Assembly (NCBI GenBank): GCA_947167345.1 | Contig: CAMVHR010000028.1 | Location: forward strand, 1-37,679 | From: an uncultured Treponema sp. | Lineage (GTDB): Bacteria > Spirochaetota > Spirochaetia > Treponematales > Treponemataceae | Direction: 5' to 3' | Length of the DNA: 37,679 nucleotides | Shown: piece after piece, positions 14,943 to 22,376 of the stretch | Layout of the letters: each line of letters opens with the position of its first letter | Position numbering within the stretch: the first letter of the stretch is position 1 | The notes under the pieces: generated by a model | What the model was told of the DNA's origin: nothing | Database searches by the model: none | The model's input: only the letters and a program-made list of their open reading frames with translations | Program-made: the position numbers and the translations under genes

Positions 14943-16289
14943 ATGCAGAATAAAATAAACCGCGGTTCACTATCAATGATTTCGCTGACGCTGCCAATTG
15001 CGCTGGAGCAGCTTTTCCGACTGCTCGTATCGTCAGCAGATACAGTCATGCTCAGCTACTACAGCAATGAAGCAGTTGCAGCCGTAGGGCTCATAGCCCA
15101 ATACATATTCTTTTTGAACCTTATATTTTCAGTAATAGGAACAGGGTGTTCAATAGTTCTTGCCCAATACCTTGGTGCCCAAAAGACTAAGGATGACTTG
15201 AATCATATTGCACAGGCAAGTACCATTATGGTATTTTTCGTCTCACTTTTTCTTACTTTGCTTGTAATTGCAGGAACTCCGCTTCTTTTAAGCTGCTACA
15301 ACCTTGATGCCAACGTAAGGAAATTTGCAACCCAGTATTTTATTATATACGGTGGAATATGCTGTTTCTTTAATGCGTTCAACCTTCTTCAGAGTGCAAT
15401 CCTCAGAAGCTACGGCTATTCCGGTAAAGTAATGATTGTCTCTGTAGTTGCAAACCTAATAAACGTGGTGGGCAATGCACTGTCTCTTTACGGATGGTTC
15501 GGACTGCCGGTATTGGGAGTTGTTGGCGTTGCATGGGCTTCGGGCATATCAATGATCGTCTCTTGCATTTTGTGCGCGTACTTTATAAGGCAAAAAGACG
15601 ACATTGCATTTTCGTTAAAGGGCATTCGCAAAGTTCCGTCAGAAAGCTTCAGACTCATACTTTCAGTGGGCATTCCGACAGCAGGCGAAAGCCTTTCTTA
15701 CAACACCAGTCAGATTGTGATCATGGCCATGATTTCAACTTTAGGCACGTATGCAATGTCCGCACAGGTTTACACGCAGACAATAGTACGTTTTGTATAT
15801 GCCATTGCAATTGCAATAGGACAGGCAACACAAATAAAGGCAGGATATTACGTTGGGGCTCATCAAAGTGACATTGCATACAGGAACATCTTCAAGTATC
15901 AACTGGCCGCAACTTCATGCTCAATGATATTGATTATTTTTGAAAACATTTTCAAAAACCCTCTGATAGGACTTTTTACAGACATAGAAGAAATAAAAAC
16001 TCTTGTGTGTACGCTCATGCTTTTCTCAATATACATAGAATTCGGGCGTTCACTCAATCTTGTCTATATAGGAGCTCTCAAAGGAGCTGGCGACATACGA
16101 TTTCCTGTCCTGTACGGAATATGTTCCAACTGGGGCATAATGGTTCTTGGAAGCTACATTCTTGGTCTAAAATTCGGACTCGGACTGGTCGGATTTTGGC
16201 TTGGAATCGGTACAGACGAAACAACAAGGGGAATCGTTATGTTTTTCAGATGGAAAAGCAAACGCTGGCAGCGACACGCCCTTGTTTAG
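14943..16289 (+). CDS. MATE family multidrug/cation antiporter
   Basis: The roughly 448-residue polytopic membrane protein has about 12 hydrophobic segments in two homologous halves and the opening pattern LTLPIALEQLFRLLVSSADTVMLSYYS typical of the MATE family, which exports drugs or metabolites using Na+ or H+ gradients. I chose ATG 14943, one base after the polyprenyl synthase stop; a TTG at 14931 in the same frame would repeat the residues MQNK and has no better ribosome-binding site. The 3' end overlaps the convergent lacI-type gene by 4 bases. Substrate unknown. Confidence 0.88.
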   Translation: MQNKINRGSLSMISLTLPIALEQLFRLLVSSADTVMLSYYSNEAVAAVGLIAQYIFFLNLIFSVIGTGCSIVLAQYLGAQKTKDDLNHIAQASTIMVFFVSLFLTLLVIAGTPLLLSCYNLDANVRKFATQYFIIYGGICCFFNAFNLLQSAILRSYGYSGKVMIVSVVANLINVVGNALSLYGWFGLPVLGVVGVAWASGISMIVSCILCAYFIRQKDDIAFSLKGIRKVPSESFRLILSVGIPTAGESLSYNTSQIVIMAMISTLGTYAMSAQVYTQTIVRFVYAIAIAIGQATQIKAGYYVGAHQSDIAYRNIFKYQLAATSCSMILIIFENIFKNPLIGLFTDIEEIKTLVCTLMLFSIYIEFGRSLNLVYIGALKGAGDIRFPVLYGICSNWGIMVLGSYILGLKFGLGLVGFWLGIGTDETTRGIVMFFRWKSKRWQRHALV

Positions 16290-17317
16290 ACATGACGGAG
16301 ACTGTCATTAACTTCAAATTCCACCTGAAAGACAGCCGTCTGCTTTTTTGAAACATTTCCGTTTATGTGATTAAAAAGTATTTCCGCTGCCGTCTTTCCC
16401 ATTTCTTTCAAAGGCTGTATGTTAGTGGCGACTTTTATGTTGTAGTTCGTATCGTTTATAAAGCCGTCAAAACCAACAATGCTTACATCTTCAGGTACAG
16501 AAAAACCGGCCTTAACAAAACCTGCAACAACTTCTGGAACAAGAACATCCATGCTGCAGAACACGGCAGTAGGTTTCTTCTTCCATTTTTTTACAGCATC
16601 TGCTATTCTGTCCTGCAAATAGCTTGCATCATAGTCAGTGCGCAAAATATAATCTTCCGGTGAGTAAGCAACTCCAGAATCCTGCAATGATTTTATGAAG
16701 CCCTTTTCGCGCTCTGAAATGTTTTCGTTATAAATGCCTTCTTCAAGACCTATGAATGCCACTGTGCGGTGACCGAACTCAAGAATCTTTTGTACGGTAT
16801 TGTACGCAGCATTAAAATTATCAGTATCAACCCATGACAAAAAGGAACTGCGGGGGCGGTCTCCTATGACAACACAAGGACGGTCACGTTTTTTAAGTTC
16901 CTCAAGCATTTCTTTCGGAATCTTCTTTAACCCTATGTAGATTATGCCGTCGACCTTTTTCTGCTTGAATGGGCGCAAGTAATCATAGGAGGTATTTTCC
17001 ATAACTTCAGGAACAGTTCCCAAAATCATGTCTATGCTGTTCTTACGACACATTTCTTCTATGCCTGCAAGAACCTGCATAAGGTAAAACATCCTTGAAG
17101 ATTTTATGAACGGAATGGGAGTCAAGATGGCTATGGTGTTGCACTTGCCGGAATTCAATACTTGTCCTGCAAAATTCGGTGCATATCCAAGCTTGTCAAT
17201 GGCAGCAAGGACTTTTTTCTTCGTTTCTTCCTTTACATTTGCTTCTCCGTTTACAACGCGCGAAACTGTTATGAAAGAAACTCCTGCAAGGTCTGCTACA
17301 TCTTTTTGCGTTACCAT
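16286..17317 (-). CDS. LacI-family transcriptional regulator
   Basis: The 343-residue repressor has an N-terminal helix-turn-helix (about 2-25) with a hinge helix (KKKVLAAIDKLGYAPN, to about 50), followed by a periplasmic-binding-protein-like sugar-sensing domain. It is the second gene of a minus-strand operon, 17 bases after the GH30 gene, with AGGAG before its ATG. Three palindromes TGTTTRCGYAAACA in the divergent promoter region (18795-18922) are its probable operators. It would therefore repress both the GH30-lacI operon, including itself, and the ABC transporter operon until an inducing sugar binds. The inducer is unknown. Confidence 0.9.
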   Translation of the reverse strand: MVTQKDVADLAGVSFITVSRVVNGEANVKEETKKKVLAAIDKLGYAPNFAGQVLNSGKCNTIAILTPIPFIKSSRMFYLMQVLAGIEEMCRKNSIDMILGTVPEVMENTSYDYLRPFKQKKVDGIIYIGLKKIPKEMLEELKKRDRPCVVIGDRPRSSFLSWVDTDNFNAAYNTVQKILEFGHRTVAFIGLEEGIYNENISEREKGFIKSLQDSGVAYSPEDYILRTDYDASYLQDRIADAVKKWKKKPTAVFCSMDVLVPEVVAGFVKAGFSVPEDVSIVGFDGFINDTNYNIKVATNIQPLKEMGKTAAEILFNHINGNVSKKQTAVFQVEFEVNDSLRHV

Positions 17318-18794: not shown

Positions 18795-18808
18795 TGTTTG
18801 CGTAAACA
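18795..18808. promoter_or_regulatory. LacI-type operator 1
   Basis: TGTTTGCGTAAACA is a 14-bp dyad differing from a perfect palindrome at one position. It lies about 24 bases upstream of the GH30 start codon, just downstream of the likely start of leftward transcription, well placed to block that operon. Confidence 0.75.
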
Positions 18809-18883: not shown

Positions 18884-18896
18884 GTTTACGTAAACA
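18883..18896. promoter_or_regulatory. LacI-type operator 2
   Basis: TGTTTACGTAAACA is a perfect palindrome (16 bp including the flanking A and T). It covers the end of the -10 box and the predicted transcription start of the ABC operon. Confidence 0.82.
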
Positions 18897-18908: not shown

Positions 18909-18922
18909 TGTTTACGCAAACA
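18909..18922. promoter_or_regulatory. LacI-type operator 3
   Basis: TGTTTACGCAAACA is the third copy, centred 26 bp after operator 2 in the 5' leader of the ABC operon, about 20 bases before the start codon. It is the exact reverse complement of operator 1. Confidence 0.78.
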
Positions 18923-18941: not shown

Positions 18942-20342
18942 ATGAAGAAAATCTTTTCTTTTAGGCGAAGGTCTATTCTCTCTATGGCACTGGGAGTGAC
19001 TATGGCACTGGGAGCTATCATTTCACTTTCCAGTTGTGGATCTAAAAAACAGGACAGAGTAAAAGTCAGATGGTTTGTTGGTCTTGGAGCAGGTTCTGAC
19101 GAACCGACTTTTGCACCACAAAAGGCTGTGGTTGACAAATTCAATGCTTCGCAGGACAAGATTGAGCTTGTTCTTGAAATTGTAGACAATGATCAAGCAT
19201 TCCAGACTCTTGCAACACAGATTTCTGGTGGTAACGCTCCTGATATATGCGGTCCTGTAGGAATCCGAGGACGCGATAGTTTTAAAGGGGCATGGCTTGA
19301 TCTTGATCCACTTGTAAAAAAGACAAACTTTGACTTGACAAAATTTGATCCTTCAATGGTTGAATTTTACCGCGATAAAGAAGACGGACTTATAGGTCTT
19401 CCATTTGGAATTTATCCGTCTTACCTCTATGCAAACAAAGAGATTTTTGAAGAAGCCGGCATTCCACTCCCTCCTAAAAATTATGGTGACAAATATATTG
19501 ATGAAAACGGCAAGGAATGGACATGGGACTATGACTGCATACGGAGAATAGGCATGAAGCTTACTGTTGATGCAAATGGAAATGACGCTACCGATCCGGA
19601 TTTCGATGCAGAAAACATTGTTCAGTGGGGATTTGGCATTGTATGGGGAGATGCAAGGGGATACGGAACGCTTTACGAACCAGGTACTTTTGTAGGAGAA
19701 GGTAATAAGGCACAAATTCCAGCAGCATGGCTTGATGCATGGAAATGGACATATAACGGAATGTGGAAAGATCATTTCATTCCAACAGCCCCTTACGGTG
19801 ACTCAGACATTCTTTCAAATGGAAGCTGGGGAGAATCTGGCAAAATCGCAATGTTCCAGTGCCACCTATGGTATTCGGGATACGCAAAAATGGACTATCA
19901 GTGGGATGTATATCCTATGCCTTCTTACAACGGAAAGACAACAGCAAAAATGCATGCTGACACATTTGAAATTCCAAAGGATTCAAAGCATCCAGACGAG
20001 GCATTTGAAGTTCTTACATATCTTGTAACAACCGCTTCTGATGACCTGCTGAAAATCTACGGTGGAATGCCTGCAATTACATCAAAGCAGGACACATTCC
20101 TTGACACATTCTTTAAGGAAAGATATCCACACGTAACAGTAAACACAAAGGTAATAAAGGACAGCATTAAATATGCTGACAACCCGAACCATGAATCATG
20201 GATGCCAAGTTTCCAGGAAGCATCTACATGCTATACAGAATTCTGGAAAAACCTGACAAACAATGACGGTCTTAACGTTGATGCCGAAGCAGAAAAATTA
20301 AAGAAAAATCTGGATGCAATTTTTGCAGCAGCAACCAAATAA
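18942..20342 (+). CDS. Sugar ABC transporter substrate-binding lipoprotein
   Basis: The 466-residue extracellular solute-binding protein (family 1) has a basic N terminus, a hydrophobic segment (12-30) and a lipobox ending at C32 (LSSC-GS), so it should be a periplasm-facing lipoprotein. Mature-domain features such as TLATQISGGNAPDI and the Trp/Tyr-rich pocket segments are typical of oligosaccharide binders. GGAG precedes ATG 18942; another ATG at 18938 is out of frame. It is the first gene of the LacI-controlled operon and delivers sugar to the two permeases that follow. Confidence 0.92.
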   Translation: MKKIFSFRRRSILSMALGVTMALGAIISLSSCGSKKQDRVKVRWFVGLGAGSDEPTFAPQKAVVDKFNASQDKIELVLEIVDNDQAFQTLATQISGGNAPDICGPVGIRGRDSFKGAWLDLDPLVKKTNFDLTKFDPSMVEFYRDKEDGLIGLPFGIYPSYLYANKEIFEEAGIPLPPKNYGDKYIDENGKEWTWDYDCIRRIGMKLTVDANGNDATDPDFDAENIVQWGFGIVWGDARGYGTLYEPGTFVGEGNKAQIPAAWLDAWKWTYNGMWKDHFIPTAPYGDSDILSNGSWGESGKIAMFQCHLWYSGYAKMDYQWDVYPMPSYNGKTTAKMHADTFEIPKDSKHPDEAFEVLTYLVTTASDDLLKIYGGMPAITSKQDTFLDTFFKERYPHVTVNTKVIKDSIKYADNPNHESWMPSFQEASTCYTEFWKNLTNNDGLNVDAEAEKLKKNLDAIFAAATK

Positions 20343-20351
20343 TTTTTTTAT

Positions 20352-20394
20352 AAGGAGGCACGGGTGGTGCATTTTCCTCCTGAATGCATCACCC
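20352..20394 (+). promoter_or_regulatory. Shine-Dalgarno plus hairpin before permease gene
   Basis: AAGGAGG (20352-20358) is a perfect Shine-Dalgarno sequence. Three bases later a 12-bp stem starts: GGGTGGTGCATT (20362-20373) pairs with AATGCATCACCC (20383-20394), with one G-U pair. The 9-base loop contains CCTCCT (20376-20381), the exact complement of AGGAGG. The permease ATG at 20403 is 8 bases after the hairpin. The structure could bridge the Shine-Dalgarno sequence to the ATG, hide it by loop pairing, or protect the upstream mRNA. Confidence 0.7.
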
Positions 20395-20402
20395 TAAAAA
20401 AT

Positions 20403-21326
20403 ATGAAAAGGAATAATGCAGTTCTTGGAATTCAGCGTTGGGAAAAGAAATGGGGACTTATATTTATAGCCCCATGGCTTGTTGGCTTTTTACTGTTCTA
20501 TTTTGGCCCTATGGTATCGTCTTTTATATTTTCGTTTTTAGATTATAATTTGATACAGCCAGAGGCTACAAAATTTATCGGATTGTCAAACTGGAAAAGG
20601 GCATTTTTGGAAGATCCGATTGTAATGAAATCCATAGCACATATTCTTGAATACAGTTTGATTTCACTGCCCATTTCATTCTGTTTTTCTCTTTTCATAG
20701 CCTTTCTTTTAAACAATCAGCACTTGCTGGGAAAAAAGCTTTTCAGGGCATTATTCTATCTTCCAAGCATGGTTCCTTTCGTGGCAACAGTTCTAATATG
20801 GAAAGGCATAATGAATGAACAGACAGGATGGTTCAACATTCTTTTGAATCAATCTGGTCTGCCGGGGGTAAGATGGCTTTCCAGTTCAAAATGGATTTAT
20901 TTCTCATACACAATGATAGGATTATGGGGATGCGGAAACACAATACTGATTCTTCTTGCAGGATTGCAAGGGGTTCCTCAGGAATTATATGAAGCAGCGA
21001 CAATTGATGGTGCTAATTCATGGCAAAGGATGATTTCTGTTACAATACCAATGCTTACACCTGTTATTTTTTATAACATTCTTATAAGCGTCATTAACTT
21101 GATGCAATTCTTCTTAATTCCTATGGTAATGAACAATGGAGACGGATTTCCTAACGGAACAACGAATTTTCCAATGGTGTACTTCTACAGACAGGCATTC
21201 TCTTACTTCAGCATGGGATTCGGTGCAGTAATTGCCTGGGTAATATTCTTTATAGGAATGATTTTTACCCTGGTTTTGTTTGGAACATCAGGAAAATGGG
21301 TGTTTTACGCAGGTGAAAAAAAATAA
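20403..21326 (+). CDS. Sugar ABC transporter permease, MalF type
   Basis: The 307-residue permease has six membrane segments and the EAA loop EAATIDGANSWQRMISVTIP that docks the ATPase. I chose ATG 20403 because MKRNNAVLGIQRWEKKWGL is a family-like N terminus leading straight into the first membrane segment. Two in-frame GTG codons at 20364 and 20367 sit 5 and 8 bases after a perfect AGGAGG and would add about 13 residues, but they lie inside a strong hairpin. The partner permease follows after 18 bases. No ATPase gene is in the operon. Confidence 0.88.
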   Translation: MKRNNAVLGIQRWEKKWGLIFIAPWLVGFLLFYFGPMVSSFIFSFLDYNLIQPEATKFIGLSNWKRAFLEDPIVMKSIAHILEYSLISLPISFCFSLFIAFLLNNQHLLGKKLFRALFYLPSMVPFVATVLIWKGIMNEQTGWFNILLNQSGLPGVRWLSSSKWIYFSYTMIGLWGCGNTILILLAGLQGVPQELYEAATIDGANSWQRMISVTIPMLTPVIFYNILISVINLMQFFLIPMVMNNGDGFPNGTTNFPMVYFYRQAFSYFSMGFGAVIAWVIFFIGMIFTLVLFGTSGKWVFYAGEKK

Positions 21327-21344: not shown

Positions 21345-22376
21345 ATGACAATGAAAAATGCAAATGATGTGACACGAGTTGTTGTCCTGGTAACTCTACT
21401 TTTCATTCTTACGATATTCCTGATGCCGATGCTTTACGGTATATCAGGCTCGCTCAAAAGCAAAGAACAGCTTTCATCGCTAAACCTTTCACCAATTCCT
21501 CAATCTCCTAAAAAATTCAACTACAATGGCAAAGATTGTGAGATGTTTATTGTTCCCATAAACGGTGAAAAGAAATCACTGGCCATTGTAAAAAAAGGAA
21601 GAGAGGAATCTGTTTTCATAGATCCTGAGAATATTACTTCAGGAGAAATAGTATGGAAGGGCAAGTGGCGCACTTTGGAAAATGACTGGCAGACTGATTT
21701 GCAGTTTCAAAACTATGTAAAAGGCTGGAACGCAATAAATTTCATGAGACTTTTTAAGAACACACTGTTCTACGCAGTAATTACAACATTAGGAACCTTG
21801 CTTTCTTCTACTTTTGTCGCATACGGCTTTTCACGATTCAGTTTTCCTGGTAAAAACAAATTCTTCATGGTTCTCATTGCGACGATAGTCCTGCCAAGTG
21901 CTGTAACCCTCATTCCAGTATATACGATTTTTTATAAGCTTGGATGGGTGGGAACATGGCTGCCACTTGTAGTACCGCATTTTTTTGCCAACGCATATAA
22001 CGTATTCCTGCTAAGGCAATTCATGCTTGGCATTCCAAAAGAAATGGACGAAGCAGCAAGAATTGATGGATGTGGACCTATTACAACATTATACAAAATA
22101 ATACTTCCCCAGTGCATTCCTGCCGTCATTTCAGTAGGACTGTTCCATTTCTTCTGGGCATGGAACGACTTCTTTAATCCTCTTTTATACCTTGCAGGGC
22201 ATCCAGAAAAGTATCCTATAAGCATTGGCTTGTCTTCATTCAGCAACATGTATTCTACAGAAACCCATCTAGTTCAAGCAGTCAGCATGATAGCCTGCAT
22301 TCTGCCATTTACAATTTTTGTAATTGCACAGAAATTCTTTATAGAAGGTGTTGTTGTTTCTGGCGTTGAAAAATAA
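21345..22376 (+). CDS. Sugar ABC transporter permease, MalG type, with insertion
   Basis: The 343-residue permease has the EAA loop DEAARIDGCGPITTLYKIILP and the C-terminal pattern of CUT1 (oligosaccharide) permeases. It is about 65 residues longer than usual. The extra length is an extracytoplasmic segment between the first and second membrane helices (about residues 38-130), beginning KSKEQLSSLNLSPIPQSPKK, charged and probably folded. AGGAGG lies 9 bases before the ATG. The segment may contact the binding lipoprotein or outer structures; this is inference. It ends the LacI-controlled operon and a long hairpin follows. Confidence 0.9.
   Translation: MTMKNANDVTRVVVLVTLLFILTIFLMPMLYGISGSLKSKEQLSSLNLSPIPQSPKKFNYNGKDCEMFIVPINGEKKSLAIVKKGREESVFIDPENITSGEIVWKGKWRTLENDWQTDLQFQNYVKGWNAINFMRLFKNTLFYAVITTLGTLLSSTFVAYGFSRFSFPGKNKFFMVLIATIVLPSAVTLIPVYTIFYKLGWVGTWLPLVVPHFFANAYNVFLLRQFMLGIPKEMDEAARIDGCGPITTLYKIILPQCIPAVISVGLFHFFWAWNDFFNPLLYLAGHPEKYPISIGLSSFSNMYSTETHLVQAVSMIACILPFTIFVIAQKFFIEGVVVSGVEK

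Follow-up and report, generated by a model that had tools for sequence, protein, structure and literature searches.

The closest described systems are genes 25 and 38 of bacteriophage T4. In gene 25 a hairpin brings the Shine-Dalgarno (SD) sequence and the AUG from 27 to 11 nt apart, and initiation drops when mutations destabilize it; in gene 38 the distance is reduced from 22 to 5 nt. Both cases were shown by experiment, according to a review (PMC3014915). The same review describes the gene 25 arrangement as conserved in close relatives only (PMC3014915). The Treponema element presented here resembles the two T4 genes in having a distant SD and an intervening hairpin that cuts the gap to a working distance. 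It differs from the T4 cases as there described in its location on a bacterial chromosome and in a sugar-transporter operon, in its longer linear gap (41–51 nt) and longer stem, and in the presence of an anti-SD loop in five of eight orthologs.

The nearest bacterial case found is E. coli thrS, where a long hairpin stays folded while the ribosome accommodates it (PMC3936740). Unlike the Treponema element, thrS as described there has an essential single-stranded domain 5′ of the hairpin. A further difference is that the thrS hairpin is a protein operator. In operons of the malE-malF type an intercistronic hairpin is found behind the binding-protein gene, as in Treponema; there, however, the SD of the following gene comes after the hairpin, and in the Treponema element it comes before. 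A bacterial chromosomal example of this layout, or a report of it from Treponema, was not found in the literature searched, which included few subscription papers.

The window is the whole stretch of DNA analyzed, 37,679 nt of an uncultured Treponema sp. (contig CAMVHR010000028.1, assembly GCA_947167345.1). On its plus strand, positions 18942–20342 encode a predicted extracellular sugar-binding protein (SBP_bac_1, Pfam PF01547, E-value = 1.4e-17) that ends with the stop codon TAA at 20340–20342. A first permease (BPD_transp_1, Pfam PF00528, E-value = 1.8e-13) follows on the same strand at 20403–21326, where ATG 20403 is the most likely start by comparison of ortholog frames, and a second permease of the same family (PF00528, E-value = 4.7e-15) is at 21345–22376, also on the plus strand, with an ordinary SD just 5′ of the gene. 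A GH30 glycosidase gene and a LacI regulator gene are divergent from these genes. Three near-identical 12-bp palindromes, GTTTGCGTAAAC, GTTTACGTAAAC and GTTTACGCAAAC, are found between the binding-protein gene and the GH30 gene, in their divergent promoter region, at positions 18796–18807, 18884–18895 and 18910–18921. These are probable operators of the LacI-family gene at 16286–17317.

The initial annotation placed a perfect AGGAGG 44 bases before the likely ATG of the first permease, and between them a 12-bp stem with a 9-base loop containing CCTCCT; both descriptions hold to the base. The SD AGGAGG is at positions 20353–20358 (plus strand), and 44 nt separate its last G from the A of ATG 20403. 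There is no ordinary SD close to ATG 20403 in the window. The hairpin spans positions 20362–20394 of the plus strand, with the 5′ stem at 20362–20373 and the 3′ stem at 20383–20394; the stem has 12 bp, one G-U pair included, and a thirteenth pair, U-G, is possible and is used by RNAfold. The apical loop TTCCTCCTG (20374–20382, with CCTCCT from position 20376) is complementary to AGGAGG. RNAfold of positions 20330–20430 gives −29.1 kcal/mol (z = −3.24), and none of 200 shuffled sequences folds to as low a value. No Rfam family matches the window at the gathering threshold.

The permease was detected at E ≤ 1e-80 in 10 of 200 genomes of the same genus, the window's own included, and 274 genomes of the family contain four further orthologs with 65–66% identity. 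The SD, hairpin and ATG are found in this order at the same gene, with no SD near the ATG, in eight of the ten close orthologs, i.e. the window, genomes G123 and G012, Treponema bryantii XBD1002 (G015), and genomes G004, G165, G153 and G064. The core AAGGAG is present in all eight. The same permease starts with an ordinary adjacent SD in six other orthologs, G137, G098 (whose junction contains masked bases), G283, G252, G246 and G244. Since eight of the ten close orthologs carry the layout, and G137, G098 and the four sequences of 65–66% identity have the ordinary SD, the arrangement looks like an innovation of one group. By parsimony the layout changed once in one tree and twice in another; the branches are only partly resolved.

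In the sequences searched, the layout appears confined to this gene. A scan of 2.1 Mb of overlapping loci for an SD, a hairpin and an ATG with an open reading frame of at least 80 aa returned only this gene, in five species, and three sham patterns gave no matches in the same sequences; the scan detects perfect stems only, and the three orthologs whose stems are bulged or interrupted escape it. A covariance model built on the element has only this gene above noise in the 274 family genomes, with T. bryantii found only when its own locus is searched. Among the other permease loci of the window's own genome, none of the 12 examined out of 15 (one is on a short contig) has the layout, the three left out being short partial matches. 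A repeat element was considered and rejected: the stem pattern occurs at one locus in its own genome, and the covariance model finds the orthologs alone above noise.

The structure is kept in these orthologs as the sequence changes. Linear SD-ATG distances in the eight are 44, 45, 44, 51, 41, 48, 43 and 44 nt with the SD kept free (the 51 nt of T. bryantii is counted from AAGGAG and is 50 in register with the other orthologs). The unpaired distances are 11, 12, 11, 13, 11, 12, 11 and 11 nt. Among the five orthologs that carry CCUCC in the loop, 59 of 59 cells are paired and 6 of 12 pairs show changes on both sides; a control with slid partners gives 0–2 such pairs. When all eight are paired by stem position, the eight outer pairs keep standard pairing in 62 of 64 cells, with both-side changes in five of these pairs; the two exceptions fall at the outermost pair, one in G153 and one in G064. 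Only 1 of 20,000 permuted sets of 3′ strands pairs as well. MAFFT misaligned the stems, so that RNAalifold on its alignment of the eight returned no structure; the structure was then specified on five sequences before all eight were paired.

The initial annotation also pointed to GTG codons in the stem as an alternative start, and GTG 20364 and GTG 20367 (20364–20369, plus strand, in the 5′ stem) are indeed in frame with ATG 20403. If the permease were to start at either codon the hairpin would be coding, and GTG 20364 is located 5 nt after AGGAGG, an ordinary SD spacing. In-frame codons at this position are present in the window and G012 only. However in G123, which is 93% identical, the GTG is out of frame; T. 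bryantii has an in-frame TAA between the hairpin and the ATG; and G004 and G165 have no in-frame GTG or TTG. The peptide encoded from the GTG is not conserved among the orthologs, and the codons are buried in a stem of about −21 kcal/mol. A GTG start was therefore rejected, as it is not conserved in ortholog frames, and for the window it is very improbable. Because the GTG is out of frame, absent or interrupted by a stop in relatives, the ATG is the conserved start, and ATG 20403 is most likely the one used in the window. The predicted N-terminal sequence of the permease is MKRNNAVLG from the ATG and MVHFPPEC from a GTG; for T. bryantii the sequence expected from the ATG is MNKKTKSAGIQRW. G064 has an upstream ATG that is out of frame. 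One point against the reading of the hairpin as a bridge is an in-frame ATG in G153 that follows the SD by a single base, a spacing that would be too close for normal use.

The locus thus displays a distant SD with no closer one, a conserved helix, and folding that brings the SD to a working distance, as in a split ribosome-binding site. The preferred reading is that the hairpin acts as an RNA bridge inside such a site and that the permease is started at ATG 20403, with a probability of roughly 0.74. It is well supported because the layout recurs, the stem letters vary while remaining paired, the unpaired gap is held at 11–13 nt, and the GTG codons are not conserved. In the proposed mechanism the 30S subunit would bind AGGAGG, and the folded stem-loop would be looped out, leaving about 11 unpaired nt and the base of the helix between the SD and ATG 20403. 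Ribosomes would then initiate at this ATG with the stem still folded and would translate the permease at a lower level than the binding protein. In the orthologs that have a CCUCC loop, its competition for the SD may temper initiation.

Another possibility is that the hairpin is solely an intercistronic 3′ hairpin, i.e. a partial terminator or an exonuclease barrier that raises the binding protein over the permease, and that the position of the SD is a by-product. Terminator-like hairpins do occur at other binding-protein/permease junctions of the genus, where 27 of 41 sampled fold below −8 kcal/mol, and the outgroup orthologs have a hairpin, a T-run and then an ordinary SD. However the T-run directly after the stem that marks an intrinsic terminator is clear only in G012 and T. 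bryantii and weak in G004; the window has TAAAAAAT. A 3′ hairpin alone also leaves unexplained that no SD is near the ATG in any of the eight orthologs and that 11–13 unpaired nt are kept. As the whole explanation it is unlikely; as an additional role it is compatible with the bridge. Six orthologs use an ordinary SD, in several cases behind a terminator-like hairpin. The element may therefore derive from an intercistronic 3′ hairpin and may still serve as one, and this is counted against the bridge.

The initial annotation offered two functions for the hairpin, a structured bridge and a switch. The bridge gains from the conservation of the layout, the compensatory changes, the unpaired distance of 11–13 nt over linear distances of 41–51 nt, and the loss of the GTG in relatives; the switch fares less well, as CCUCC is absent from three of the eight loops. 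As a switch, the CCUCC loop would pair with AGGAGG in a pseudoknot, close the ribosome-binding site and set how much binding protein is made relative to permease; possible signals are temperature, Mg2+ and translation of the preceding gene. Five of the eight orthologs keep CCUCC in the loop on differing stems, and the chance of CCTCC in a 9-nt loop is about P = 0.0015. In the window the SD:loop duplex, with the three top pairs opened, has −9.8 kcal/mol, and SD:16S has −10.1 kcal/mol; competition is conceivable since the two are about equally strong. However the loops of T. bryantii, G153 and G064 are without CCUCC, so that complementarity to the SD is found in five of the eight members, and two changes are needed to place the CCUCC loop on the tree. 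The SD is nearly invariant and thus permits no test of covariation between SD and loop. A 12-bp stem with 1–4 nt on its 5′ side would also be sterically tight for a pseudoknot. A switch at this junction is rather doubtful, and the bridge does not need CCUCC, since the three species that lack it keep the layout.

Even so, CCUCC is probably not in the loop by chance, since loops of this kind are found again in other hairpins of sugar operons. In a sample of loci from the same genus, CCTCC is found in 4 of 27 junction hairpins before a first permease (two of these represent one orthologous operon) and in the loop of 1 of 39 other tandem intergenic hairpins. In 0.61 Mb, CCTCC is in 12 hairpin loops, nine of them intergenic by rough gene calls, and GGAGG (the same hairpins on the other strand) is in seven; controls of comparable abundance (CTCCC, CCCTC, TCCCC, CCCCT, CCACC and CCGCC) are in 0–3 loops and never intergenic. 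A further 180 kb of sugar loci shows CCTCC in six loops, two of these inside a long reading frame, the same six controls in 0–1 loops, and CATCC, CTTCC and CCTTC in 1–2. Among 188 hairpins 3′ of genes, nine have a CCTCC loop, where 0.1 are expected by pooled shuffling and 0.7 by shuffling within loops. The motif is found in 1 of 94 of these from unselected stretches (the window included) versus 8 of 94 from permease loci (Fisher p = 0.035); counted once per orthologous operon the difference is not significant (p = 0.11), which counts against a bias toward sugar operons. A general CCUCC-hairpin model (R3) has matches at E ≤ 1 in 88 of 200 genomes, which is about chance level above E = 0.05; the strongest matches alone were inspected and many are seeds or orthologs of seeds.

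A gene that we take to be arabinofuranosidase-like, from a reading of its protein, is followed by a terminator hairpin that carries CCUCC in its apical loop in all seven readable orthologs, on several different stem sequences (L121 at 8262, L127 at 6732, L135 on the minus strand, L237 at 3378, L238, L239 and L241). This count leaves aside G080, where no end was found, and two genomes that stop at contig ends, G012 and G165. In the window's own genome two other binding-protein/permease junctions, G000:C2 (L094/L153) and G000:C20 (L096/L154), have a hairpin with the loop UACCUCC. Each of these hairpins precedes an ordinary SD, GAGGU and GAGGA respectively, with which the loop could pair. The CCUCC loop is present in three of the five closest orthologs of the C2 junction and in 3 of 10 of the C20 junction, G184 being the third.

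Intergenic rows of hairpins occur in other species of the genus (L262, L265, L266, L269, L271, L274 and L278), where several loops are CCTCCGTG or CCTCCATG and a second hairpin follows; these look like an interspersed repeat family. L272 is an A/T-rich hairpin with a CCTCC loop that has three copies of equal score in one genome (G209:C1:135173, C1:138529 and C104:20), and is possibly part of a mobile element.

A C-rich motif that acts on an SD is described for S. aureus icaR, where a motif in the 3′ region pairs with the SD and blocks initiation (PMC3868564). The icaR motif, UCCCCUG, is in the long 3′-UTR of the same gene; the Treponema CCUCC differs from this in being in an apical loop, either next to the SD or within hairpins at junctions and terminators, and its pairing is putative. 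The CCUCC loops hint that hairpins with an anti-SD loop form a broader class in these sugar operons. A tentative proposal, which is possible though not probable, is that sugar operons of gut Treponema share a hairpin family in which the CCUCC loop is kept as stems turn over. Its members would act as anti-SD antagonists, in cis or as released 3′ ends, that scale the translation of transporter genes. They would be placed between binding-protein and permease genes, in the terminators of operons and, in the window, within the split ribosome-binding site, where bridge and antagonist would be one hairpin.

Ordinary features fail to explain the element in the window, which is well conserved and has an anti-SD loop that is unexplained and recurrent. 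Until now the arrangement has been described chiefly for genes 25 and 38 of phage T4, and by analogy the Treponema element would be their chromosomal counterpart. A short linear distance from SD to start is taken for granted by gene finders and expression models, and a start reached only through a folded spacer would depart from that. With natural compensatory changes in eight species, the cultured T. bryantii included, a split ribosome-binding site could be tested directly in a setting other than phage T4. A second testable question, on anti-SD loops as regulators, comes from the CCUCC loops that recur in neighbouring sugar operons.
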